Shown here piece after piece: positions 111 through 13,901 of a DNA stretch of 48,567 nucleotides. The DNA is from an uncultured Veillonellaceae bacterium (GTDB lineage: Bacteria > Bacillota > Negativicutes > Veillonellales > Negativicoccaceae). The translations under genes and the position numbers were made by a program. The notes beneath the pieces are model-generated. The model was not told the origin of the DNA, did not search any database, and saw only the letters and a list, made by a program, of their open reading frames with translations. Position 1 is the stretch's first letter. Each line of letters begins with the position of its first letter. The stretch is from the NCBI GenBank assembly GCA_945876385.1, contig CAMCNU010000010.1, positions 1 through 48,567 on the forward strand, read 5' to 3'.

Positions 111-3100
111 GTGGAACGGACTGGCGCAGACAATGAACGAAGTGGAAGCGAACAGTCTGATGAACAGACTCAAAGAGTAGAAAACAAAAGGCCAAAGCCC
201 GCGACAGTGCGTCGTGGGCGTTTTTATGCCCCGATGGAAGACCGCGTTGCGTTCAACGAAGGACTGCAAAACATCAATACTAGATTTGAGAATAACCGCG
301 CGGCAATGGAAACCTATTTGCGGTTAACCGACAACGGACGTATTACAGATATGAACAGCATTACCGTCAAACCCGAAGATTTAGAATCTTTGTCTAAATT
401 CAGCGGGTGGGGCGGAATGACAGACCGTCTCTATCGACTGGACGGAAACGCGCAGGAGTGGATGAGAGAGCATTTCACAGATGAAGAAATTACCGCAATG
501 AAAAACAGCACGGATACGGCGTACTTTACGCCTCCCGAGGTCGTTAATTTCATGTGGCAGGCTATTTCTCAAATGGGATTGCAACAGAACGCGCGTATTC
601 TTGAGCCGTCTATGGGTGTCGGTAACTTTATCATGCAATTGCCCGATATGTACAAAGACGGCGCACACATCACGGGTATTGAACTTGATACCGTCACGGG
701 GCGTATGGCGCAACTCTTGTACGGCGCAGACGGGAAAACGAATATCCGCGTGCAAGGATACGAACAGAACCGTAGCGGGGACAATTCCTTTGATTTAGTC
801 ATCGGTAACGTTCCGTTTTCGTCTACACGCTTTAAGACGGGCGAACAACGATTCGACAGATTCAGACCGTTGTTGCATGACTTTTTCTTCTTAAAAGCAG
901 TCAAACAGGCGCGTCCTGGCGGGATTGTTGCGTTTATCACGACGGCGGGTACGTTGGATAAGGCGGACAGCAGTATCCGTCGCCAGTTGGCGGCAGACGC
1001 GAAACTGATTGCCGCGTATCGATTGCCCGCGGGAACGTTTGCAGGGACAGACGTTGTTGCTGATGTCATCTTCTTGCAAAAGCGGGAACATCGAATTGAC
1101 GATGTAAGCGGCGAAAAGTGGTTGCGTGCAGAAGTGCCTAATATTCTTGACAACGAGAAGTTTGGGGGAAACCGTCATCGGGCGCAAGAGGCCGTTAATG
1201 ACGGCGCAATGATGAATGAGTATTTCATTGCACACCCCGAGAACATTTTAGGTAATGTATCCGCGAGTAAGAATTGGCGGTCAGGTAAATATCGTTTCAC
1301 TGTTCAGGAAAACGGCGAGATTGCGCCGATACTTGAAAAAGCCTTGCAGGGGATTCCGCAGAACATTATTACGTCGCGCACACAGTCAATCCAAGAGCAG
1401 GAAGTCATTGCAGCGACGACAAACGCTAAAATCGGCACGATTACGGTTAAGGATAAACGCTTGTATCGTAACGTCGATGGCGCGGCCGTTGAGATCACGC
1501 GGGAAGAACTGGGGATTACAACAGACGCAGACTTTAACAAGGTCGCGGGATTGTTGCGTTTGGCACAAGACTACCGCGCATTGTTGGCGGCGGATACGGC
1601 AGGAAAAGACGCAACAGAATTGCGTAAACGGGTGAAAAAAGGCTATGAAATTGCCCGCAAGGGGGACAAGTCTATCCGCACGTCCAAGGCGTACAAAGCA
1701 CTGATTAAAGCGGGTGACGGCAGCGTGTCCGTATTGTCGTCGCTGGAAGATGCGGACGGTAATCCGAGCGAAATTATGAAACGCCCGACGGTCAGAAAAA
1801 CAGCGGTAATTAAAAATCCGACAGTTGCCGAGGCTGTTATCATGACATCATCGGCAGGCGATATTGACGTATCGAGCATTGCCGAATTGACAAAACAATC
1901 CGAGCAGGACGTTACAAAGGCGTTGATTGAGCAAGACCTAGGATATGTAACGCCTAACGGTAGCTGGCAGACAAAAGAAAAGTACATCAACGGGAACATT
2001 GCCGCAAAACTTGATGAAGCACAAAACGCGCTTGAGTACGGCAACAAAGATGTGCAGCGTAACATCAAGGCGTTGAATGCGGTATTGCCCGAACGTGTAC
2101 CGATGAACGCAGTTACTATCGGATTTGGCGCGTCGTGGATTGAGACCGATATTTACCGCGACTTTATCATTCAAGAGTTGTACGGTAAAGACGTAAACGA
2201 GTGGTTAAAGGGGAGAATTACCGAGTCGCAAGCAGTACAGGTATCAATGGCGGGCGGTATTTGCTCCGTACATGTAGACATTAAAGCGTTGCCCGCAGGA
2301 CACAATGCGCGCAGCAAGAAGTGGCATATTTCCGTAGGAGAAACAGCCGCGCAAGACATAACGTTCAACAAAGTACTGGCGGCAGCATTAGGAAACAAGG
2401 AAATTGTCGTCAACAACAAGACAAAAGAAGGCGGTCAAGTTGTTGTTACGTTCAATGAAGAAGCAACAGGACTTGCTAACTCTATGGTGCAAACGTTGCT
2501 TGACGACTGGCAGGAGTTTATCCGCACGGGACCTCACCGCGAGCATCTGTCGGATAGCTACAACTATCGTTTCAACAGTTTCTATACGCCTAAATTTGAC
2601 GGCAGTCACATGACGTTCCCCGGCATGCGTGCGGAAATTGAGGAAAAAGAATTTAGATTGCGCGAACATCAGAGAAACGCAGTCTATAAAGGATTGATGC
2701 AGGGGCGCGGACTGTTTGCACATGAAGTCGGCACGGGCAAAACCTATGTTATGGGCGCGCTGGCGATGGAGTCAAAACGTTTGGGACTTGCCAAGAAAAC
2801 ATTGCTGCTGGCAAAAACAGCCAACTACAAAGCTGTTGCAGAAGACATTCAAAAGGAATATCCTGGCGCAAAAATCCTTGTAATTGGAGAAAAAGGTGAT
2901 AAGGCAGGCGGTGAATTGGCGGAAGCGATGATCGGCGACTGGGATATTATCGTTGCGCCGCACTCGCAAGTGGGACTGTTCATGCTTTCTGATGAAGCGT
3001 ACACCAAGGCGGAACAAAACGTCCGCCAAGAAATCCGCGAGCAATTGGAACAGGCGTCGAGCAACGTCACCATTCCGCCGGCAATTTGGGATTTGGTAGA

Positions 3101-6100
3101 CGGAAAACTTGAGTCGACGGATAAAGAAGTTAAAACGGCAATCCGCAGGCTAAAGGGCGACAGTCTTGAAGTAAAAGAACTGGTGCAGTCATTGACGCGC
3201 CAATTGTCGTTGCTTGAAAAGTACGGCGCAAGTGTAGCTGCCGCAAAGCACATTCCTTTTGAAGACTTGGGAATTGACCAAATGCTTGTTGACGAGGCAC
3301 ATGAGTTTAAGAAACCAGGTCTGATAACGCGCAGTAGCGTAAAAGGGATTGAAACAAGCGCGTCGGATATGGCACTCAAGTTGCGAATGCTTGTTGAAAA
3401 CGTTCAAGAGCGATTTGGGCGCGGGGTATATCTTTTTACAGGCACACCGATTACCAATACGGCGACAGAACTCTATCAGATGATGAGATATGTAATGAAG
3501 CCCGAAATGGAAGCGGCGGGTATTGCGTCCTTTGATAGCTGGTTTGCAACATATGCACAGGCCGACAGCGCGCTAAGCAAAAAGCCGACGGGTGAGTATG
3601 AAGACGAAGTGCGGTTTATCGGGTTCAAAAACTTACCCGAACTCAAGCGCATGTATGACATGTACTTTGACTTTGTGAAAGCAAACGAAATGCCCGAATT
3701 TACTGCACGCAAGGTAAAAGGGTATGCACTCACGGATGAGAACATTCCCGATGATGTAAAAGACGAACTGGAAAACGGACGAACGGAAGATGCTACCGAC
3801 GTACCGTACCATAGGATTGTCAATGTACGGTCGGAAACGACAGAAGAGATGAATGCGTATACTAAGCGCATTGAAAAGGCGGCCAAGCGATATGCAGAGG
3901 CTTCTGGTGCAGTAAAAAAACAGCTTAGTCAATTGGGATACGAGGGTGAACCGCTAACCGCTATGCGCAAGCTTAGTCAGCTGGGGTTAGATCCGCGACT
4001 GGTTGGCGGGGCGGATTATGCAGGCTCTAAAATTCAAAATTGCGCGGACAACATTCTGCAAGAGTATCAGTTTCATGACAAGGTGAGTCAGGCGGTGTTC
4101 TTGCAAGAGGGCGTATCTGACGAACGTTCTGTTGTTGAACGCGGCAGTGACGGGTTTGCAGTCCGTGACGAAAATGGCAAGGTGCAAAAAGTAAAAGTTG
4201 CCGGGTGGAACGTGGCACAAGCGTTAAAAGACGAGTTGGTAAACCGCGGTATTCCCGAAGATGAGATTGTTGTTTTATCGTCCGACGCGGGTGCGTTGGC
4301 ACAACTCAAGAAAGAGTACAAGCGTAAATACAAGTTAAGCAAGCAGCCGACTACTGACGACTTGAAAAAACTGATTGCCGAAGAAGTCAGTGAGTGCAAG
4401 GTAAAGGTTGTTATCGGTACGCGCTCTATGCTGGGTACAGGTATCAACATGCAACACAACTTGAAAGCAATTCATCAGCTGGATGCACCATGGATGCCTG
4501 GCGAACTTGCCCAATCTCAAGGGCGCGCCGTACGACAAAAGAACCAATGGAATACTGTTACGGAATATCGGTATCTTACCGATTTGGACGTTGTACGCTG
4601 GAATCGTCTTGCAATCAAGTCAAGCTTTATTAACGCAATTACTGACAAAAACAGCACGCAACGAACGCTGGAAATGGACGAAAGCATGGGGTCAAGCATT
4701 GGCGGAGCAGAGGGCGATATCTATCTCACGCTATCGGCCGCGGCGCAAGATAACCGACTCATGGAGCAAAATCGACTGGACAAAAAGGTCAAGAAGCTGG
4801 AAGCCGCACAAAAGGTGTTCTATCGTTCAAAAGAGTTACAAGAAGCGGAAGCCAAGCGCGCAGAAAAAGATATCGACCAACACAAGAAAGACTTGCAAAG
4901 TCTCAAGAAACTTGACGCGATAAAGAACGATGATCAGCTTGTTATCGAGGGACGCAAAGACGACGAAAAAGAAGTTGACGCTATCCGCAGGCTGGAGTCC
5001 GATATGCGGAAAAAGGGAAGCGACAAGGTAAAACTTGCGACCTACCGCGGACTGACCATCAGCGGTAAAAAGGTGAATTTTTCTATTGAGTTATACATCA
5101 GCAACGGCAAAACAGAGGCACACCTCAAAACAATTGAAGGCTCAATCAGCGCGTCCTCATTGCGTGCATTAATCAACAACGAACTCCCTAAACAGATTAA
5201 AGGTCGTGAGAACATGATAGCGAACGACCAACGCGCGATTGACACATGGGAAACGGAAAAGGACGCTAAATTCACGGGCGAAGAAGCACTCAATAAAGCA
5301 CGGACGCGGCGCGACGCAATCATCGAAGATATCAAGCGCAATCCCGAAAAACCGCCGACGTGGTTGACACAGCAAGTACCGCCGAACTCGACGGTACGGA
5401 TAAACGGTGAAACAACAATCATCCGTAGCTACTTTGTCGGCAAAAACAAAGACGGGGAAAAGGTGCATTATCTCATCGACGATATGGGCGATGCGTACCA
5501 CATCTCACAAATCCGCGACTATCAGACAGGACTCAATCCGTACGAGGATTTTCTCAAGGACGAGCCGAAAGATATCAAGCCCGTAAAAGACGTGCAAGAA
5601 GAAACGACAGAAGAAACGACTGAAGAAACAGCCGAAGAAACGCAAGACGGGCAGGATGAAGTCAAGTATTCGACGGTTGAAGAAGATGAAACGCACGAAA
5701 AGACCGACGAAGAATGGCGCGAAGAAGCCCTTGCAGCGTCCAAGGAAAAGCTGGATAAAGACCAAGCGCGGTGGGCGAAACAAGTGGATTGGTTGGCGCG
5801 TACTCCCAAAAAACAGTGGAAGAATATGTACCTTGTTATGGACTGCCCTGTTGTGGTTGAAATGTTTGGTGCAAAGCGATTACCGGTGCGGATTAATGTT
5901 CGTGAATTAGACAAAATATTGAATTACAAACACGGTGAGCGTCATGGTCGTGAGGTGATGGCCGAGGCGTTGAAGCAGTTGCCACTTGAGCTGTCTAGTC
6001 CCGCGGCGGTAGTTGTCAATCGACAGAGGGGGGAGAACGGGAAGTTTCACGACGTTCCTATTGAGGACGGATTTTTAGTATTTGCGTCAATTGAGGTTTC

Positions 6101-9100
6101 AGGAAGTCCGATTAATATAGCTGTTTCTTTTAGCAAAATTGACGATAAAATCTATGCAAAAATACAAACAAACACGGGAGTGCGAGATTGGGCAGGCAAG
6201 TATCCGTTGGACTATAGTCATAAGGTAATAACTGTATCACCAAGGGACCACGTCAAACGTCTTTATGCCGCTATGCAATCGGGCAATTTGTTATATTGGA
6301 ACGCAAAAAAAGGAGAATCATTGTTTTCAACAACGAGGGCAATTTTGACCCCCGCCAAGAATACAGATTCTCCTTTTGATGAATCAAGTATAACAAAAGA
6401 TTTTACTCACGTCAACGAAAAAGATGACAAGGGAAAAGAAAGTGAAAACACAGCAGAAGATTTTGCGGAATTTGACAAGGCTAAAAAGGAAATACCCAAC
6501 ACGGTAAAAGGTCCTAAGGACTTAGAAGAACATATCGTCAATGCCTACCGCAACAGAAACGAAGTACGCTATTCTAACGCAATGGGCGAAAGCGAAACGC
6601 ACAAGTACAGCGAAAGCGAAGTACAAGAAGCGTTTAAGGGACAAAACGTCGCACGAACGGATAACGGGTATGAGATTACCTTTAGCAACGGTAACAAGCT
6701 GGTTATTACGGAAACGGGCGAAATGCGCCGCCCCGACGGCAGACGCATTCGCGGATCATATCGTAAAGGTGAAATCACGCTTACGGATATGGCGAATCCG
6801 TTTACGCTGGGACACGAAAAACTGCACTTTGCCAAGGATTGTTTGTACACGCCTAAAGAATGGGCGTTCATCGAAAAGGCGACGCGCAAACGTCTTGCGA
6901 AAGAGGGCAACACGAATCCAACGGCACTTGAGATTGAAGAACGCGCCGCGGATTGGTATGCGGAATGGGAACACAAACGCAGTAAGCCGAGCGGCACGTT
7001 ACAAAAGTTGTTCACTATGTTGCACGACTTTTTAGCAAAAGTGGCGAACCTTGTACACGGTAACGCTAACGCGCAATTCAGTAAGTTGCGCGAGGGCAAG
7101 TTGTACGGGCGCAACTGGACGGATAACAAGGGCAAACGACTCAAGTATTCGACGGTGCAAGAAACGAACGACGCGATTGTACGTACGTCCGAGGATATCC
7201 GCGAAGACAGCGCGGGACTGCTTTCTGAATTTACAGAGGGTATGAATAACGCCCTTGTGAAGCGCGGAATGAAAGCGGGCAAGGGCGTTCACGTTCGTGA
7301 CGATATTCAGGCGTTTAACTGGATGTCTCATACGCTTATGACGCCCGACCATTTAGCTAAGCATAACGAAACGTTGCGGGTATTTACGTCACTGGGCAAA
7401 GACGCAAGTCGGGAACTGCAACGGTTGCGCGATGAAGTGGACGAACAGATTGAAGCAATCAGCAAGAATCTTGACAGCGATGAACGGCGCAATGTGTACA
7501 ATAGCATCATCGAGCAAGGCGAACTGGACGGAGTTGAGTTTACCGCTGATGAGTTGCGCAAAGAAAACGTTGAACAGCCTGTTATTGACGCTTATTTAGC
7601 GACACGGAAACTGTACGACGAATATTATCGTAAAGTCGATGAAACGAAACGCAACATGACACCGTATCATCGAATTGTGACGGCAAAAGAATTGCAGGCA
7701 CTGAAAGATAATACGTTTGTAGAGGGACTCGACAGCAGGAAACTTGCGAGCGGGAAATACGAAGTAAAATACCGCATTGCACAGCAATACGTTCACACTC
7801 GCGAAGAAATGACGGGCAAGAAGTTGCAGGGGCTGTTGCAGTCAAGATACGCTAAAGTTACGGAAGTTACAGACGAAACTGGCGCGCATGTAGATCACGA
7901 AGATGTAACCGCAGACGGTAGCTACCAAGTAAACTACACATCGATTGATGAGCCTATGCACAAGGTCAAAGGCTATTTTCATCACATGTTTGAGGATTGG
8001 TCGGTGTACGAAAAAACGACAGACCCCGCGGGTATTGAACACATCACGCAGGTAGCGTCTTATCGTAGTCGGCGCGATGCGGTAGAAGCGTTCAATAAAA
8101 TGCAGGACTTGCTGGATAAGTCCCGCAAGGAGAACAAGACGTACACGCGCGACGAACTCAAGAAGATGGGATACGATAATGGCGTTATTGCCGCGTATGA
8201 AGAAGCAATGAATTCAGGCGCGCCCGTGGATAGTCGTGAATACGTTATCCGTCCGAAAACGTTCCGCGTACCCGGCAACGGTGGCGTTGCATTGTCTAAT
8301 CTGAAATATGAACAAGCTATCCGCGCGATTGAAGATAAGTATGAAGTATCTTCACAAGAAGCGCGCGAAATGGCAAGGGGAATACTGAAGAAAAAAGCAG
8401 GTCACCGTTTCTTTGGGGCAACAATGGAACGAACGGGAGAAAAAGGCTATTCGCTGGATATGTTGCATGTATTGCGCATGTACACGATGCAGGCGACACG
8501 TTATGTTGCGCTGGAGAAATTCAAGAACAACGCGTATCGTGAATTTGAAAAGCTGTTTGGCGTCCCCGTTGACGAATCAAAAGGTGGCGGACTTGAATTT
8601 TATATCAAGAAGTACATCGATGACGTGAACGGCAATCCGACGCGGATAGAACAGTTTTTCAACGAAACGCTCAATTCGTTCACCGGCGGGCGATTGAGTC
8701 GCGCGTTGGGTACAGACCGACCCGCGATGATGCTTGCGAACAAAGAAATGACGTATGCGGCCGTCTTGAAACTAGGGTTACTCAATGTATCATCGGCAGC
8801 TATCAACTTAACGCAGTTGATGAACTCCGTAACGATACTGGGGGTTAAACCGCTAATCAAGGCACATTGGGCGAAAGGGAATTTCACGGAAGAAGAAGTG
8901 AAGTTCCTAAAAGATGTAGGCGTTGATACACAGCTGGGGTTGGAAACGGGTGCAGGGTATGACAAGAACCGTAGCGAAAAGATGGCAAGTTATGCACTGG
9001 CGGCGTTCACATGGTCGGAGCAAAAGGTACGGCAGATAACCGCGTTAATGGCACTGGATAAGGCGAAACGCGAGGGAATGTCCTATGCGCAAGCCGTGAA

Positions 9101-10100
9101 ACTGGCACGCGATATTAACGACGAAGCTAACTTTGACTATGGTATCAATAACGCGCCGTTGTTTATACGTGCTGGCGGTCCTGTTACGCAAATGTTGTTC
9201 CAATTCATGAAATTCCCTGTCAATCAGTTGAGTTTCATGATGAACACGGTTCGACACGGAACAAACGCACAGCGAGCGCGTCTGATGATACCGTTACTCA
9301 TGTCGGGTACATACGGCATTCCTGGTTGGGCAGCGGTCGTCTGTCCGTTCCTTGCGGCAGTTGTTGCGGCCGCAAGTGGCGACGATTACGACGATCCCGA
9401 ATTGTATCTCAAGAAAAAATGCTATCTGTGGGCGGACGGGGATCCGTTCTGGATTGGATTTTTACAAGTCGGATTCCATGGATTACCCGCGCTTGCCAAT
9501 CTTGATGTCGGACGTCGTATCGGTATTGGCGATTTTGGCGGTGACGTATCGAAGACGTTGCGCGGTCAGAAGTACGGGTACGATATGGGCGACTTTATGA
9601 CAAGCCTTGTCGGCGGGATTGTGTTGCAATCTACCTTGCAATCACTCAAACAGCTGTCGTATGGCAACGAGATTGAAGCCGTTAAAGCGTTGTCGCCCGC
9701 ACTCGGCAACATTGCACAGGCGATTGTCGGCGAGCGCAAAACGACGCGCGGACGACTTGCGACTAAGTACGACGGCGTAGGAACACGCACAATGAAAGCA
9801 TTAGGTTTTAAGCCGCTTGACGAAACTGTCGAAACGGAAAAGGCGCGCATGATACAAGAAGAACGTTCAATCAAGAAAATGGGCGATACCCGACTGATTG
9901 ACGAATTCATTCGTGCGAAAGAAGATGATGACACAGAAAGAATGGCGGAGTTGTTGGTAGAACTCAAGAAACGCGGCATATCCGCCAAGCGAGTGAACAA
10001 CGAAATCAAGCGTAAAAAACAGTCACAATTCGAGCGAGCAATCGATAACGAGGGCAGCAAGAAAAGACGTCAGGCAGCGCAAGAACGGTTTAATTGGTAA
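111..10100 (+). CDS. Giant phage polyvalent protein: DNA methylase, SNF2 helicase, HExxH segment, virion ejection-like C-terminus
   Basis: This 3329-residue protein starts at GTG 111 behind GAGGA. Residues ~90-420 look like an N6-adenine methyltransferase: YFTPPEVV ~137, EPSMGVGNF ~165 (SAM loop) and IGNVPF ~231 in place of NPPY. Residues ~846-1500 form an SF2/SNF2 helicase with Walker A HEVGTGKT at 871-878, VDEAHEF ~1060 and the motif VI region QSQGRAVRQ ~1470. A coiled coil follows (~1540-1700), then an acidic Glu/Thr linker (~1830). HEKLH at 2235-2239 with a downstream EERAADWYAEW helix (~2276) resembles a zincin active site. The C-terminal third is helical with FMKFPVNQL ~3033 and a hydrophobic segment ~3059-3091, as in injected internal virion (PLxRFG-type) proteins. 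Known relatives (DarB-like, ICE-borne methylase-helicase fusions) are thought to enter the host with the DNA and protect it. The protein is probably packaged in the virion and ejected; that role is inference. Confidence 0.85.
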   Translation: MERTGADNERSGSEQSDEQTQRVENKRPKPATVRRGRFYAPMEDRVAFNEGLQNINTRFENNRAAMETYLRLTDNGRITDMNSITVKPEDLESLSKFSGWGGMTDRLYRLDGNAQEWMREHFTDEEITAMKNSTDTAYFTPPEVVNFMWQAISQMGLQQNARILEPSMGVGNFIMQLPDMYKDGAHITGIELDTVTGRMAQLLYGADGKTNIRVQGYEQNRSGDNSFDLVIGNVPFSSTRFKTGEQRFDRFRPLLHDFFFLKAVKQARPGGIVAFITTAGTLDKADSSIRRQLAADAKLIAAYRLPAGTFAGTDVVADVIFLQKREHRIDDVSGEKWLRAEVPNILDNEKFGGNRHRAQEAVNDGAMMNEYFIAHPENILGNVSASKNWRSGKYRFTVQENGEIAPILEKALQGIPQNIITSRTQSIQEQEVIAATTNAKIGTITVKDKRLYRNVDGAAVEITREELGITTDADFNKVAGLLRLAQDYRALLAADTAGKDATELRKRVKKGYEIARKGDKSIRTSKAYKALIKAGDGSVSVLSSLEDADGNPSEIMKRPTVRKTAVIKNPTVAEAVIMTSSAGDIDVSSIAELTKQSEQDVTKALIEQDLGYVTPNGSWQTKEKYINGNIAAKLDEAQNALEYGNKDVQRNIKALNAVLPERVPMNAVTIGFGASWIETDIYRDFIIQELYGKDVNEWLKGRITESQAVQVSMAGGICSVHVDIKALPAGHNARSKKWHISVGETAAQDITFNKVLAAALGNKEIVVNNKTKEGGQVVVTFNEEATGLANSMVQTLLDDWQEFIRTGPHREHLSDSYNYRFNSFYTPKFDGSHMTFPGMRAEIEEKEFRLREHQRNAVYKGLMQGRGLFAHEVGTGKTYVMGALAMESKRLGLAKKTLLLAKTANYKAVAEDIQKEYPGAKILVIGEKGDKAGGELAEAMIGDWDIIVAPHSQVGLFMLSDEAYTKAEQNVRQEIREQLEQASSNVTIPPAIWDLVDGKLESTDKEVKTAIRRLKGDSLEVKELVQSLTRQLSLLEKYGASVAAAKHIPFEDLGIDQMLVDEAHEFKKPGLITRSSVKGIETSASDMALKLRMLVENVQERFGRGVYLFTGTPITNTATELYQMMRYVMKPEMEAAGIASFDSWFATYAQADSALSKKPTGEYEDEVRFIGFKNLPELKRMYDMYFDFVKANEMPEFTARKVKGYALTDENIPDDVKDELENGRTEDATDVPYHRIVNVRSETTEEMNAYTKRIEKAAKRYAEASGAVKKQLSQLGYEGEPLTAMRKLSQLGLDPRLVGGADYAGSKIQNCADNILQEYQFHDKVSQAVFLQEGVSDERSVVERGSDGFAVRDENGKVQKVKVAGWNVAQALKDELVNRGIPEDEIVVLSSDAGALAQLKKEYKRKYKLSKQPTTDDLKKLIAEEVSECKVKVVIGTRSMLGTGINMQHNLKAIHQLDAPWMPGELAQSQGRAVRQKNQWNTVTEYRYLTDLDVVRWNRLAIKSSFINAITDKNSTQRTLEMDESMGSSIGGAEGDIYLTLSAAAQDNRLMEQNRLDKKVKKLEAAQKVFYRSKELQEAEAKRAEKDIDQHKKDLQSLKKLDAIKNDDQLVIEGRKDDEKEVDAIRRLESDMRKKGSDKVKLATYRGLTISGKKVNFSIELYISNGKTEAHLKTIEGSISASSLRALINNELPKQIKGRENMIANDQRAIDTWETEKDAKFTGEEALNKARTRRDAIIEDIKRNPEKPPTWLTQQVPPNSTVRINGETTIIRSYFVGKNKDGEKVHYLIDDMGDAYHISQIRDYQTGLNPYEDFLKDEPKDIKPVKDVQEETTEETTEETAEETQDGQDEVKYSTVEEDETHEKTDEEWREEALAASKEKLDKDQARWAKQVDWLARTPKKQWKNMYLVMDCPVVVEMFGAKRLPVRINVRELDKILNYKHGERHGREVMAEALKQLPLELSSPAAVVVNRQRGENGKFHDVPIEDGFLVFASIEVSGSPINIAVSFSKIDDKIYAKIQTNTGVRDWAGKYPLDYSHKVITVSPRDHVKRLYAAMQSGNLLYWNAKKGESLFSTTRAILTPAKNTDSPFDESSITKDFTHVNEKDDKGKESENTAEDFAEFDKAKKEIPNTVKGPKDLEEHIVNAYRNRNEVRYSNAMGESETHKYSESEVQEAFKGQNVARTDNGYEITFSNGNKLVITETGEMRRPDGRRIRGSYRKGEITLTDMANPFTLGHEKLHFAKDCLYTPKEWAFIEKATRKRLAKEGNTNPTALEIEERAADWYAEWEHKRSKPSGTLQKLFTMLHDFLAKVANLVHGNANAQFSKLREGKLYGRNWTDNKGKRLKYSTVQETNDAIVRTSEDIREDSAGLLSEFTEGMNNALVKRGMKAGKGVHVRDDIQAFNWMSHTLMTPDHLAKHNETLRVFTSLGKDASRELQRLRDEVDEQIEAISKNLDSDERRNVYNSIIEQGELDGVEFTADELRKENVEQPVIDAYLATRKLYDEYYRKVDETKRNMTPYHRIVTAKELQALKDNTFVEGLDSRKLASGKYEVKYRIAQQYVHTREEMTGKKLQGLLQSRYAKVTEVTDETGAHVDHEDVTADGSYQVNYTSIDEPMHKVKGYFHHMFEDWSVYEKTTDPAGIEHITQVASYRSRRDAVEAFNKMQDLLDKSRKENKTYTRDELKKMGYDNGVIAAYEEAMNSGAPVDSREYVIRPKTFRVPGNGGVALSNLKYEQAIRAIEDKYEVSSQEAREMARGILKKKAGHRFFGATMERTGEKGYSLDMLHVLRMYTMQATRYVALEKFKNNAYREFEKLFGVPVDESKGGGLEFYIKKYIDDVNGNPTRIEQFFNETLNSFTGGRLSRALGTDRPAMMLANKEMTYAAVLKLGLLNVSSAAINLTQLMNSVTILGVKPLIKAHWAKGNFTEEEVKFLKDVGVDTQLGLETGAGYDKNRSEKMASYALAAFTWSEQKVRQITALMALDKAKREGMSYAQAVKLARDINDEANFDYGINNAPLFIRAGGPVTQMLFQFMKFPVNQLSFMMNTVRHGTNAQRARLMIPLLMSGTYGIPGWAAVVCPFLAAVVAAASGDDYDDPELYLKKKCYLWADGDPFWIGFLQVGFHGLPALANLDVGRRIGIGDFGGDVSKTLRGQKYGYDMGDFMTSLVGGIVLQSTLQSLKQLSYGNEIEAVKALSPALGNIAQAIVGERKTTRGRLATKYDGVGTRTMKALGFKPLDETVETEKARMIQEERSIKKMGDTRLIDEFIRAKEDDDTERMAELLVELKKRGISAKRVNNEIKRKKQSQFERAIDNEGSKKRRQAAQERFNW

Positions 10101-10154: not shown

Positions 10155-10802
10155 ATGTTAGACAAGTGGCGCGGGCGAATTGCCCGAAAAATGACAGTAC
10201 CACATCGTTGGTTTTATGCATTAACACTCATGGCAGTACTTGACGCTATCGACGCAGGCGAATATCTGTGTCGAGCGATGTCGGCACTGGCGCACAATTG
10301 GGAAACGAAAGCAACAGTTGCAAGCGCGGTTGCGGTAGCGGTAGATGGTATCTATGCGCAATTAACGGGCGTATACGGCACGATTGCAACAGCGTATTTT
10401 TGGGTGGTAAGTTTAGATGTTGCTACACGTTGGTTGGCCGCAGGCAATCAGTATTTATTGTTACACGACGTACCGCAAGACCGAATAACAACGATTGATA
10501 AGGTGCAGGCGATTTTGCTGGCGTTTAACGACGGTAAGCTAACCAGCCGTCTGATGATTGGCGGGTTTATTAGTAAATTCGTATTGTTTGGCATAGGCAT
10601 AGCAACAGCCTATCATCTTGACAGAATGTTTCACGCAATGAGGTTACACTTGCCGCTTACTGTCATGACGTTTGTGCTAGGCTACTTTTGCTATCACGAA
10701 GCAATCTCTATTACCGAAAACTTGCGCGACGCAGGCAACAAGCACATGGACAAGCTGGTTGAACTGCTGAATACAAACTTGTATAACAAACTGAAAAAAT
10801 AA
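10155..10802 (+). CDS. Phage holin family protein (holin_4-like)
   Basis: The 215-residue protein starts at ATG 10155 behind GAGGTGAG. Three hydrophobic segments are visible: ~72-92 (IATAYFWVVSLDVATRWL), ~136-155 (MIGGFISKFVLFGIGIATA) and ~163-183 (LPLTVMTFVLGYFCY), followed by a charged amphipathic tail. The C-terminal run EAISITENLRDAG followed by a DKLVELL-like stretch matches the pattern of phage/toxin-secretion holins. Its place directly before an amidase endolysin supports a role in permeabilising the cytoplasmic membrane at lysis. It is longer than most holins (~140 residues) because of the N-terminal extension. The family is assigned by pattern only. Confidence 0.65.
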   Translation: MLDKWRGRIARKMTVPHRWFYALTLMAVLDAIDAGEYLCRAMSALAHNWETKATVASAVAVAVDGIYAQLTGVYGTIATAYFWVVSLDVATRWLAAGNQYLLLHDVPQDRITTIDKVQAILLAFNDGKLTSRLMIGGFISKFVLFGIGIATAYHLDRMFHAMRLHLPLTVMTFVLGYFCYHEAISITENLRDAGNKHMDKLVELLNTNLYNKLKK

Positions 10803-10818: not shown

Positions 10819-11355
10819 ATGAATACATTGACACTAGAACAAGTAAAATGGTTGGCACAGGCCGCCAAGGGAGAAATTGATACTTTATATGCACACTGGA
10901 CGGCAGGAAGGTATGACCAATTCTTTGATGACTATCATTTGTCTGTTAATGGTAAAGGGGAAATTAGGTCGGCAATTACATATTTAACCGATTATCGTCC
11001 GGCAACGTATCGTCGGAACAGCAGAAGTGTATCCATTGCGCTTGAGTGCGCACTGGGAGCAAACAGTGAAACAAATCTCGGCGAGTATCCGCCTACAGAT
11101 GTACAGATAGAAGTCATGGCGCAAATCATTGCGACACTTTGTAAAGAACTGGAACTCCCGATTGACACTCAACATGTAATGACACATGCGGAGGCGGCGG
11201 ACAATAAAGACGGAAGATGGCCGCATGCACCATACGGACCAGACAGCACTTGCGAACGGTGGGATTTATTAGTGCTGAAAGAGGGCGCGCCTCGCTGGTC
11301 TGGCGGTGAAATTATCCGCGGCAAGGCGAGGTGGTATAAAAATCAGCAGAAATAG
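10819..11355 (+). CDS. Phage endolysin, N-acetylmuramoyl-L-alanine amidase (Amidase_2-type)
   Basis: The 178-residue protein starts at ATG 10819, 16 nt after the holin, behind AAAAGGAAT. Visible zinc-amidase features are a His in DDYHLSVNGKGEI (~43), the core strand SIALECALGA (~75), HVMTHAEAAD with the second His (~127) and STCERWDLLVL with a Cys (~150). This His-His-Cys set is the zinc site expected of T7-lysozyme/Amidase_2 enzymes, which cut the bond between MurNAc and L-Ala. There is no signal peptide, so it would need the adjacent holin for release. The gene probably belongs to one lysis operon with the holin. Confidence 0.75.
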   Translation: MNTLTLEQVKWLAQAAKGEIDTLYAHWTAGRYDQFFDDYHLSVNGKGEIRSAITYLTDYRPATYRRNSRSVSIALECALGANSETNLGEYPPTDVQIEVMAQIIATLCKELELPIDTQHVMTHAEAADNKDGRWPHAPYGPDSTCERWDLLVLKEGAPRWSGGEIIRGKARWYKNQQK

Positions 11356-11890: not shown

Positions 11891-11915
11891 GATTTTGGTA
11901 GGAGGAGGTGAGACC

Positions 11916-12458
11916 ATGTTGAAAGCAATTGATGTGGCGAATTATTTCGTTGATTCTTCCCGTGTTCTTGGAGCAAGAATAAGCAATATGAAATTGAATA
12001 AATTGTTGTATTTTGCACAAGGGTATAGCTTGTCATGTCTGGAAAAACCTTTGTTTGAAGAAGATCTGCAAGCATGGCAGCATGGTCCGGTAGCACCGTC
12101 AGTGTATAATGCATTTAAATCGTACGGGCCAGGTTCCATTGAGCACGTGAGTGGCGAGTATAACGTGTCTGTATTCAGTGATGAGCAAGTTGATCTGCTT
12201 ACTGCTGTAATGCATAAATATTTTCGCTATTCTGCATGGGGGCTTAGAGAGCTAACTCATCAAAAAGGAACGCCTTGGAGACAAGTGTATGATGAGAACG
12301 CGCGAAATGTCGTTATAGAGAAAAAATTGATGAAAGAGTTTTTTGACACACAAGATCTTTCTCATGAATCGCGACCTAGCATTGATGTAGAATATATCGG
12401 GTATCATGATAAGAACGGCGTGCTGATTTTGCCAACGGACGATGCCGATGAAGGCTGA
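11916..12458 (+). CDS. Panacea-domain (DUF4065/SocA-like) antitoxin
   Basis: The 180-residue protein starts at ATG 11916 behind an ideal GGAGGAGGTGAG. Residues ~1-140 carry the hallmarks of the Panacea domain: the N-terminal DVANYFVD helix, KLNKLLYFAQGY ~28-39 and the strongly typical AWQHGPVAPSVYNAF ~55-69, then LTHQKGTPWRQV ~118. Panacea proteins neutralise many unrelated toxins and are often encoded in front of them in prophages. The downstream gene overlaps this one by 17 nt and encodes a PemK/MazF-like protein, as expected for a two-gene toxin-antitoxin unit. The last ~40 residues are the most likely partner-specific part. Transcription should come from the promoter at 11862, and autoregulation is likely but not shown. 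Confidence 0.85.
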   Translation: MLKAIDVANYFVDSSRVLGARISNMKLNKLLYFAQGYSLSCLEKPLFEEDLQAWQHGPVAPSVYNAFKSYGPGSIEHVSGEYNVSVFSDEQVDLLTAVMHKYFRYSAWGLRELTHQKGTPWRQVYDENARNVVIEKKLMKEFFDTQDLSHESRPSIDVEYIGYHDKNGVLILPTDDADEG

Positions 12459-12768
12459 TGTCTGGGAGGTTTGGTGGGTTCGTTTCAAGTATGAAGATTC
12501 AGACGATTGGAAAGAACGCCCGGCTGTAATATTGGACAAAAATGAAGCGTTTGTTATCGGAGCTAAAGTTACGAAGCACGAGCCGCGCAAAGATTTCCCC
12601 GGTGAATATCAGATTCTCCGATGGGAATCTGTGGGATTTGCATGTCAATCAACAGTGAGGCTGTCAAAACGTATTGCTTTATACGATACTGATCTAGTAA
12701 GAAAAATGGGCAGGCTTGAAAAGGCGGATATTGCAAATATTAAACTGTTGTTGAAGATGTATTTTTAA
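12442..12768 (+). CDS. PemK/MazF-like toxin paired with Panacea antitoxin
   Basis: This is a 108-residue protein if started at ATG 12442; ATG 12448 (MKADVWEVWW) is equally likely and gives the more usual N-terminus. Both starts lie inside the upstream gene, so translation is probably coupled. The pattern DVWEVWWVRF, then ERPAVILD (~30), then QSTVRLSKRIAL (~72) and a C-terminal KADIANIKLLL helix follows the SH3-like PemK/MazF fold, in which the R-P-x-(V/L)-(V/I) strand is typical. MazF-type proteins cut mRNA at short motifs. Whether catalytic residues are retained cannot be judged by eye. A terminator follows 11 nt after the stop. Confidence 0.7.
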   Translation: MPMKADVWEVWWVRFKYEDSDDWKERPAVILDKNEAFVIGAKVTKHEPRKDFPGEYQILRWESVGFACQSTVRLSKRIALYDTDLVRKMGRLEKADIANIKLLLKMYF

Positions 12769-12970: not shown

Positions 12971-12977
12971 AAAAGGG

Positions 12978-13352
12978 GTGAGAACGATTGCAAAGAAAAA
13001 GATTATCCTTATGCTTGTTGCTGCTATTCTTGGCGGCGTTTTTATTTGGTGGCTTTTCGGCGAAAGCGGCTCCAGTAGTGTTGACGGCGGAGGAATGGTC
13101 GACGCTAACGCACGAATTGAACGCGCTAGAACAGAGAACGAACGAGCGGGAGAACTTAATCAACGAATTGAGGGCAGCGTCGGGCGGCTTGAACGCCAGC
13201 AACAACGAATTGAAAGCGGAAATAAATCAGTTGAAAGCGTTGCAGATCGAGCAGAAGCAACACTTAACGCAGACAGAGCGAGCCTTGAAAGAATCCGAGC
13301 AGTCGTTAATCAAGTGGAAAAAAGACGAACTCAAAAAGCGGACGAGCCTTGA
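12978..13352 (+). CDS. Membrane-anchored coiled-coil protein, overlapping frame 1 of 2 (i-spanin-like)
   Basis: From GTG 12978 the frame encodes 124 residues: MRTIAKKKI, one membrane anchor (IILMLVAAILGGVFIWWLF, ~9-28), a Gly/Ser hinge, then an extended Arg/Glu/Gln-rich coiled coil (NARIERARTENERAGELNQR and onward) ending near ...VEKRRTQKADEP. Short N-terminus, signal anchor and periplasmic coil is the topology of Rz-type inner-membrane spanins, which disrupt the outer membrane at phage lysis. Similar short coiled-coil proteins occur beside holin/endolysin genes of Negativicutes phages as I recall them, but I cannot check this. The frame lies almost entirely inside the next gene (+1 relation). 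Both cannot be dismissed, because each has its own start and anchor. The start codon is close to AAAAGG, so initiation may be weak. Confidence 0.5.
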   Translation: MRTIAKKKIILMLVAAILGGVFIWWLFGESGSSSVDGGGMVDANARIERARTENERAGELNQRIEGSVGRLERQQQRIESGNKSVESVADRAEATLNADRASLERIRAVVNQVEKRRTQKADEP

Positions 13353-13416
13353 GCGGAAAAAGAGGGCGTGGCAGATTGTCGCGATCGTGGCGGTCGTATA
13401 CGCGGCGAGTAGGTGA
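12988..13416 (+). CDS. Secreted coiled-coil protein with C-terminal anchor, overlapping frame 2 of 2 (spanin-partner candidate)
   Basis: From TTG 12988, ~7 nt after AAAGGGGTGAG, the frame encodes 142 residues. A signal peptide (RKRLSLCLLLLFLAAFLFGG, cleavage likely after AKAA ~28) is followed by a long coiled coil rich in Glu, Asn, Leu and Gln (~35-120) and ends with a hydrophobic segment (AWQIVAIVAVVYAAS). Codon choice (ttg, gcg, acg, gaa) resembles the neighbouring phage genes, so I regard this as the more certain of the two overlapping genes. No lipobox is seen, so it is not a classical Rz1 lipoprotein. Position after the lysis genes and extended periplasmic topology suggest a role in spanning or disrupting the envelope. 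The function is inferred from shape and context only. Confidence 0.65.
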   Translation: MQRKRLSLCLLLLFLAAFLFGGFSAKAAPVVLTAEEWSTLTHELNALEQRTNERENLINELRAASGGLNASNNELKAEINQLKALQIEQKQHLTQTERALKESEQSLIKWKKDELKKRTSLERKKRAWQIVAIVAVVYAASR

Positions 13417-13520
13417 ACTGTTAGGGAATACCGAACAGTTGCGGGGCGCGAGCAAGTAGCTTTCGAGTAGCTGTTGGCGCCGACAAAATAGGGCGCGGAT
13501 TTTTATGGTATAATAAATGC

Positions 13521-13656
13521 AGGCACAGGTGATGTTCTTGTGAAGGAAATAGGCTGGGTTCCCGAATGGGAGTAGGCGTTATGCTTAGAAGTCCTTTGCC
13601 CCTGGGGAGCGTCACCTAGGCGTGCAGTCCATGCGCTGGGCTGCACGTCGCCATGG
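13521..13656 (+). ncRNA. Candidate structured small RNA, family not recognised
   Basis: An extended -10 box TGGTATAAT (13505-13513) is followed ~7 nt later by a strongly structured segment. GGTGATGTTCT (near 13528) can pair with GGAGCGTCACC (ending near 13616) over 11 consecutive pairs including G-U, closing ~65 nt of inner sequence. Directly after it GTGCAGTCC and GGGCTGCAC form a 9-bp hairpin extended by GGC/GCC. There is no coding frame. I compared it from memory with small SRP RNA, 6S RNA, tmRNA and common riboswitches; none fits. No T run follows the last hairpin. Confidence 0.45.
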
Positions 13657-13694
13657 ATTTTGAGTGTGTGAAGTTTTTGCACAAAATGACGTGA

Positions 13695-13757
13695 TATAAT
13701 ATAAGTGAGGGTGGATAAAGGATCCGCCTTGCCCGAATTCCCTGTCGGGCTTTTTTA
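13695..13757 (+). ncRNA. Candidate ~50-nt RNA with its own promoter and terminator
   Basis: A TATAAT box (13695-13700) is followed by a 7-bp hairpin GGTGGAT/ATCCGCC (13710-13728) and then a terminator GCCCGA-ATTCCCTG-TCGGGC with six T residues (13731-13756). Promoter, hairpin and terminator within 63 nt suggest a very short independent transcript. The -35 region is weak. Confidence 0.45.
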
Positions 13758-13901
13758 TTGCGCAAATGATAATGGGCAATGATTGCGCCTGCCCTTTTTT
13801 GCCCTTTTTTGTTTCTCATAAAGCTAGAACAATTGTATATAAGGGGTGGAGAAAACGTCCCTTCTCTCGCACCACCGTTGGCGATGCGTACATGGCCGCC
13901 G

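Follow-up and report, generated by a model that had tools for sequence, protein, structure and literature searches.

The last two genes of a phage lysis cassette, here called A and B, are encoded on the same DNA in different reading frames, and we propose with a probability of roughly 55% that their products are the subunits of a two-component spanin that lacks a lipoprotein. They lie in a 48,567-nt stretch of DNA, referred to below as the window. A sequence-only reading of this locus had suggested overlapping spanin-like genes in a phage of a diderm Firmicute, and its interpretation is partly supported by the results described below.

Two overlapping genes at the end of a lysis cassette

The A/B overlap extends over 365 nt (12988–13352), in which the B frame is A+1 (Table 1). 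Two overlapping frames of this length, each with a hydrophobic N-terminal segment followed by a long coil, had been read from the sequence, and both points were confirmed: A runs from GTG 12978 to its stop at 13352 and B from TTG 12988 to its stop at 13416, and both products contain a helix with heptad periodicity. AlphaFold2 modelled A as a transmembrane (TM) helix (residues 3–31) and a second helix (38–121), which agrees with the inner-membrane spanin topology assigned to it earlier, and B as a signal helix (3–20) and one single helix (34–141).

Table 1. Coordinates of the lysis cassette and of the A/B features in the window.
Feature	Position	Strand	Basis or remark
Holin, window lysis cassette	10155..10802	+	Pfam PF05105 1e-11, PHROG_199 3.8e-8
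Endolysin (N-acetylmuramoyl-L-alanine amidase, Amidase_2)	10819..11355	+	Pfam PF01510 4.7e-8, PHROG_5867 3.4e-35
Shared Shine-Dalgarno-like stretch AAAAGGGGTGA	12971..12981	+	Spacing fits TTG 12988; contains GTG 12978
Gene A, i-spanin-like protein, 124 aa	12978..13352	+	Frame, PHROG_89, selection, AlphaFold2
Gene B, secreted coiled-coil protein, 142 aa, TTG start	12988..13416	+	Proposed lipid-free partner of A
A transmembrane segment IILMLVAAILGGVFIWWLFG	13002..13061	+	20-residue apolar stretch, family-typical
B signal peptide, no lipobox	12988..13068	+	Probable SPase I cleavage between AKA and A; sequence, 106-homologue census
B C-terminal tail WQIVAIVAVVYAASR, after basic run LERKKRA	13369..13413	+	Conserved pattern in homologues

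The cassette is ordered holin, amidase endolysin, a SocA/Panacea and PemK pair (11895–12768) and then A/B. About 110 homologous loci were collected, of which 106 A/B pairs were retained and grouped into 66 clusters of less than 50% B identity; in most clusters A/B is likewise preceded by Amidase_2, Amidase_3, GH25 or other muralytic genes, or by a holin. The assignment to a phage lysis locus therefore holds for the window and for most of the family, and a position beside holin and endolysin is that of a two-component spanin. Since the endolysin types found beside A/B are unrelated to one another, the pair probably serves the membrane step of lysis and not a particular endolysin.

Three other features of the surroundings were recorded. 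The overlapping SocA/Panacea-domain and PemK/MazF-like genes between endolysin and A/B resemble a toxin-antitoxin insertion in the lysis operon, apparently absent from most relatives, where the endolysin adjoins A/B. On the phage side, positions 111–10100 form a single open frame of 3329 aa with DEAD-helicase-like motifs by eye. Behind A/B, positions 13420–13760 are non-coding and contain, by eye, GC-rich segments that look inverted, as well as a run of T; no Rfam family reached its gathering threshold in the window, this segment included.

The pair is obligate and restricted to the class

Three prophages of the window's genome carry both frames, with B only about 35% alike among them; in the two extra copies (C6 and C11) both frames are open, the register is unchanged and the GTG(+10)TTG arrangement is retained. 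A B profile had matches in 155 of the 380 Negativicutes genomes searched with it and in 65 of 102 genera of this class, some of the weakest matches being other coiled coils, and in 60 relatives the A frame was present at every genuine B match. A is open in all of the 106 retained pairs with the register seen in the window (A 98–161 aa, B 121–179 aa, overlap 290–471 nt), and B stops a median of about 64 nt past A. A/B is thus a class-wide feature and not the peculiarity of one phage. Both frames were also found in 16 further loci (2 in named genomes, 14 in viral contigs), and A is shorter in one divergent locus (L184).

Conversely, strong A-profile matches co-located with B in 100 genomes of the class, and no A without B was found in them. 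The search for independent homologues in non-overlapping genes, proposed earlier as proof that both frames are real, yielded none: A and B are always overlapped. One frame broken with the other kept was seen in two loci only, L048 (1467–1914) and L116, where one stop interrupts B while A is intact, by sequencing error or decay. Outside the class, 398 genomes drawn from the phylum contained no credible B; their matches were weak and mostly long coiled-coil proteins of about 380–420 aa, which were rejected, together with locus L015, as coiled-coil artefacts.

Among phage records, tblastn of the window's A and B against INPHARED phages gave no match, and other A/B members matched a single fecal phage, MT836582, which is without annotation and has both frames. 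Neither the plasmids searched for A/B nor the viral contigs scanned with the window's A yielded a match.

Both reading frames are under selection

When synonymous codons were redrawn with the B protein fixed, using B's own codon usage, which is conservative, A stayed open in a mean of 1.6% of draws (maximum 10%; 4.2 stops expected), and in the reciprocal redraw with A fixed B stayed open in 12% on average. Nevertheless, both frames are open in 66 of 66 clusters; because the clusters are not fully independent, the nominal value of 1e-131 for the combined probability serves only as an indication. The third frame over B contains about 14 stops in the homologous loci, whereas the A frame is open there for about 90–150 codons. 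Elsewhere in these loci, 50 same-strand overlaps of at least 290 nt were counted in 424 kb.

Single-site changes sorted by their effect in both frames gave dN/dS values of 0.44 (0.34–0.59) and 0.28 (0.18–0.48) for A, and 0.28 (0.22–0.35) and 0.17 (0.12–0.29) for B (24 independent pairs), with bootstrap limits below 1. Within the overlap, changes are more frequent at B position 2, which is A position 3, than at B position 1, and this order is reversed in the private tail of B (Fisher p = 0.018). Proline accounts for 0.4% of A residues compared with 4.1% expected from B alone. Together with the heptad statistics given below, the redraw, the dN/dS values and the proline depletion show that both proteins are under selection.

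A rival reading takes a single frame as coding and the other as a chance long ORF held open by composition; in its favour, a coil in one frame does promote a coil in the other. We give this reading a negligible probability: it is already refuted by the 66 open clusters, by dN/dS values far below 1 for A as well as B, and by a heptad power and a proline depletion that go beyond what the other frame imposes. The claim that both frames are genes was in this way borne out, by conservation and selection instead of by non-overlapping homologues.

Adjoining starts and one ribosome-binding region

A Shine-Dalgarno match of at least 4 bases precedes B in 62 of 66 clusters, its core lying mostly 7–11 nt upstream of the start. 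In 57 of 66 clusters an A start codon (ATG, GTG or TTG) is found at −10, −4 or +2 relative to the B start; at −4 it is often ATGNATG, at +2 often ATGTG, and divergent loci of the window type carry either GTG or ATG at −10. In the window, starts 10 nt apart served by one ribosome-binding region had been proposed. The adjoining starts and the single region stand, but the A start at GTG 12978 is uncertain, as this codon sits within B's own Shine-Dalgarno stretch, a placement not easily accounted for; an alternative A start is the in-frame AUU at 12987, overlapping B's TTG as 'ATTG'. In L109, L174 and L175, close relatives of L082, the −4 ATG of A is changed to ATC, and A would there start at an upstream GTG or a non-canonical codon.

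Two coils in one heptad register

Hydropathy has a period of 3.5 residues in both proteins (12.6- and 7.7-fold over shuffles), and at 11.0% of overlapping codon positions, against 4.5% expected, both frames specify a hydrophobic residue, through TT dinucleotides (xTT/TTx). Those spaced 21 nt, or 7 codons, apart are 3.2-fold enriched. A TT yields a hydrophobic residue whichever of the two frames is read, which explains why coiled coils lend themselves to overprinting. The heptad power of A was 12.2 versus 7.0 simulated from B alone, and that of B 7.1 versus 3.8 simulated from A alone. Each coil thus arises in part from the coding of the other, so that a coil predisposes the +1 frame to form one too, and selection has sharpened both, as the observed heptad power and the proline depletion exceed the simulation.

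The common register points to contact between A and B, which bears on another explanation, namely that A alone is an active i-spanin-like protein and B a lysis regulator, antiholin- or endolysin-inhibitor-like, that shares its DNA. Lysis regulators that act in the periplasm and carry a cleavable signal peptide are known, such as T4 RI (in the part of PMC8385771 covered), and B is broken with A intact in the two loci mentioned above. Such a role for B nonetheless appears improbable to us, because the pairing is invariant while the neighbouring endolysin type changes, so that B does not track the endolysin, and because a shared register would be expected of partners in contact.

Protein A resembles an i-spanin

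The apolar stretch of the A TM segment is 20 residues long, and 97% of homologues pass a 19-residue hydropathy test. By its predicted topology, A is a type II inner-membrane protein with an N-terminal TM and a periplasmic domain, as i-spanins are. The window's A matched PHROG_89 (Rz-like spanin) at 2.4e-6, and matches in the family to PHROG_89, 214, 739 and 1403 were weak (1e-4 to 1e-8); unrelated coil families reach similar E-values with coiled-coil queries, which weakens these Rz-like matches. We therefore describe A as i-spanin-like by place and predicted topology, with profile matches that are supportive but weak. Among 61 A homologues, 23 matched PHROG_18860, of unknown function (best 2.1e-56), so that some members of the A family already have a catalogue entry, as a phage protein without a name, which records neither the overlap nor a lysis role.

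Protein B has a signal peptide, no lipobox and a short apolar tail

Of 106 B proteins, only 5 contain a strict lipobox string, which varies in place but is usually early in the h-region, and the window copy has none. The signal peptide usually ends in C/S/A-x-A, and the lipobox hypothesis was rejected; the frequent cysteine is the −3 residue of a likely C-S-A site before X and is S or A elsewhere. The earlier description of B as a non-lipoprotein is borne out by this census. Lacking the lipobox of an outer-membrane lipoprotein (o-spanin) and that at the N-terminus of a unimolecular spanin (u-spanin), B would be filed as neither. No PHROG gathers B, and its coil matches in PHROG, NCBIfam and Pfam were rejected as family assignments.

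The B C-terminus consists of a net-positive stretch followed by a short apolar tail and a terminal K/R in 103 of 106 homologues, and the segment after the signal peptide, YxITxxELxxL, is well conserved. Of the signal peptide, coil and C-terminal anchor earlier ascribed to B, the first two stand, whereas the anchor is probably not an ordinary TM: the apolar tail has a median of 14 residues and passes the 19-residue test in 3% of cases, which argues against an ordinary inner-membrane span.

These properties have to be weighed against an arrangement in which both subunits are in the inner membrane, still as a two-component spanin. B would then be a type I protein (N-out, C-in) that runs antiparallel to A and has its tail in the inner membrane, and YxITxxELxxL would touch an outer-membrane or wall component. 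A type I inner-membrane protein is allowed as a spanin subunit in section 15 of PMC6139136, the K/R after the apolar tail and the conservation of the post-signal segment would fit, and a sub-threshold match to TIGR04211 (coil plus C-terminal anchor), which includes the tail region of B, would suit the inner membrane. Against it, the tail has 14 apolar residues at the median compared with 20 in A, and its basic residues would lie on the periplasmic side, contrary to the positive-inside rule. We consider this arrangement unlikely, though with appreciably more weight than a regulatory role of B.

A host genome in which no LolA was found

The nearest named relatives of the window are 'Veillonellaceae bacterium' contigs, and the host genome contains an Omp85 protein, while a search of it found no LolA, in line with the diderm Firmicute host assumed earlier. 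No LolA or LolB has been found in Negativicutes (PMC5007114), and Veillonella parvula is not known to have outer-membrane lipoproteins or a Lol system (PMC10665443).

Proposed mechanism

In the preferred reading, a lipid-free spanin of A and B, both proteins would be translated from one mRNA through one ribosome-binding region, in frames +0/+1 with starts 2–10 nt apart. The N-terminal TM would anchor A in the inner membrane and leave its coil in the periplasm, and B would be exported by Sec and cleaved by signal peptidase I, leaving a helix of about 100–105 residues that ends in the basic patch and the short hydrophobic tail. One stretch of DNA specifies the two coils in a common heptad register, which allows A to pair with B in parallel, and we suppose that they lie side by side, residue for residue, with the B tail ending beyond the A C-terminus on the outer-membrane side. 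After removal of the peptidoglycan by the endolysin, the complex would pull together or fuse inner and outer membrane as Rz/Rz1 does. The short tail would stand in for the lipid anchor of an o-spanin, which apparently cannot be delivered in Negativicutes.

Most likely, then, B works like an o-spanin, in register with A, and the outer membrane is held by the basic, short hydrophobic tail. A hydrophobic helix is an unusual anchor for the outer membrane, which counts against this explanation. More tentatively, and at slightly less than even odds, A/B may represent a spanin family of the whole class. Its outer-membrane subunit would be held by a short C-terminal helix and not by a lipid, be coextensive with its inner-membrane partner and be locked to it in register by the 21-nt-spaced TT, a lipoprotein-free way of disrupting the outer membrane in diderms without Lol.

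Comparison with known spanins

In the sections of the survey by Kongari et al. (2018) covered here, spanins are defined by lipoprotein signals, embedded o-spanins start mostly at 0.4–0.5 of the i-spanin length, and other anchors are expressly left open (PMC6139136). Since spanins are both defined and searched for by the lipoprotein signal, any phage of a diderm that has no outer-membrane lipoproteins would be scored as lacking a spanin, and our search of the open-licence literature found no account of spanins in Negativicutes. A/B points to a way in which such phages may complete lysis, and Veillonella offers tractable test hosts. Gene callers are biased against overlaps (same sections of PMC6139136), so at least one of A and B is probably missing from many annotations. 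Apart from lysis, A/B is an unusually clean case of coextensive genes in two frames, replicated in dozens of divergent lineages.

Like the unimolecular spanin T1 gp11, B has an exported N-terminus, a long periplasmic part and a hydrophobic C-terminus; unlike it, B has no N-terminal lipobox, its C-terminal segment is probably too short for a usual TM and it is always paired with A. TIGR04211 SH3-and-anchor proteins likewise consist of a periplasmic coil and a C-terminal anchor, and their model matches the B coil and tail with 28–29 bits (cut-off 65), but B is without an SH3 domain, phage-borne and overlapped with A.

The closest parallel is with lambda Rz/Rz1 and other embedded or overlapped pairs, which A/B resembles in its place in a lysis cassette, the overlap of the frames (in 106 of 106 pairs), the second gene in +1 and the N-terminal TM and periplasmic coil of the i-spanin. 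The level starts form an arrangement that is not described in the sections of PMC6139136 covered. B begins within 2–10 nt of A, not at 0.4–0.5 of its length, and runs past its end; moreover, in contrast to Rz1, B is a non-lipoprotein, almost free of proline and itself a coiled coil of about 105 residues, in one heptad register with the coil of A.
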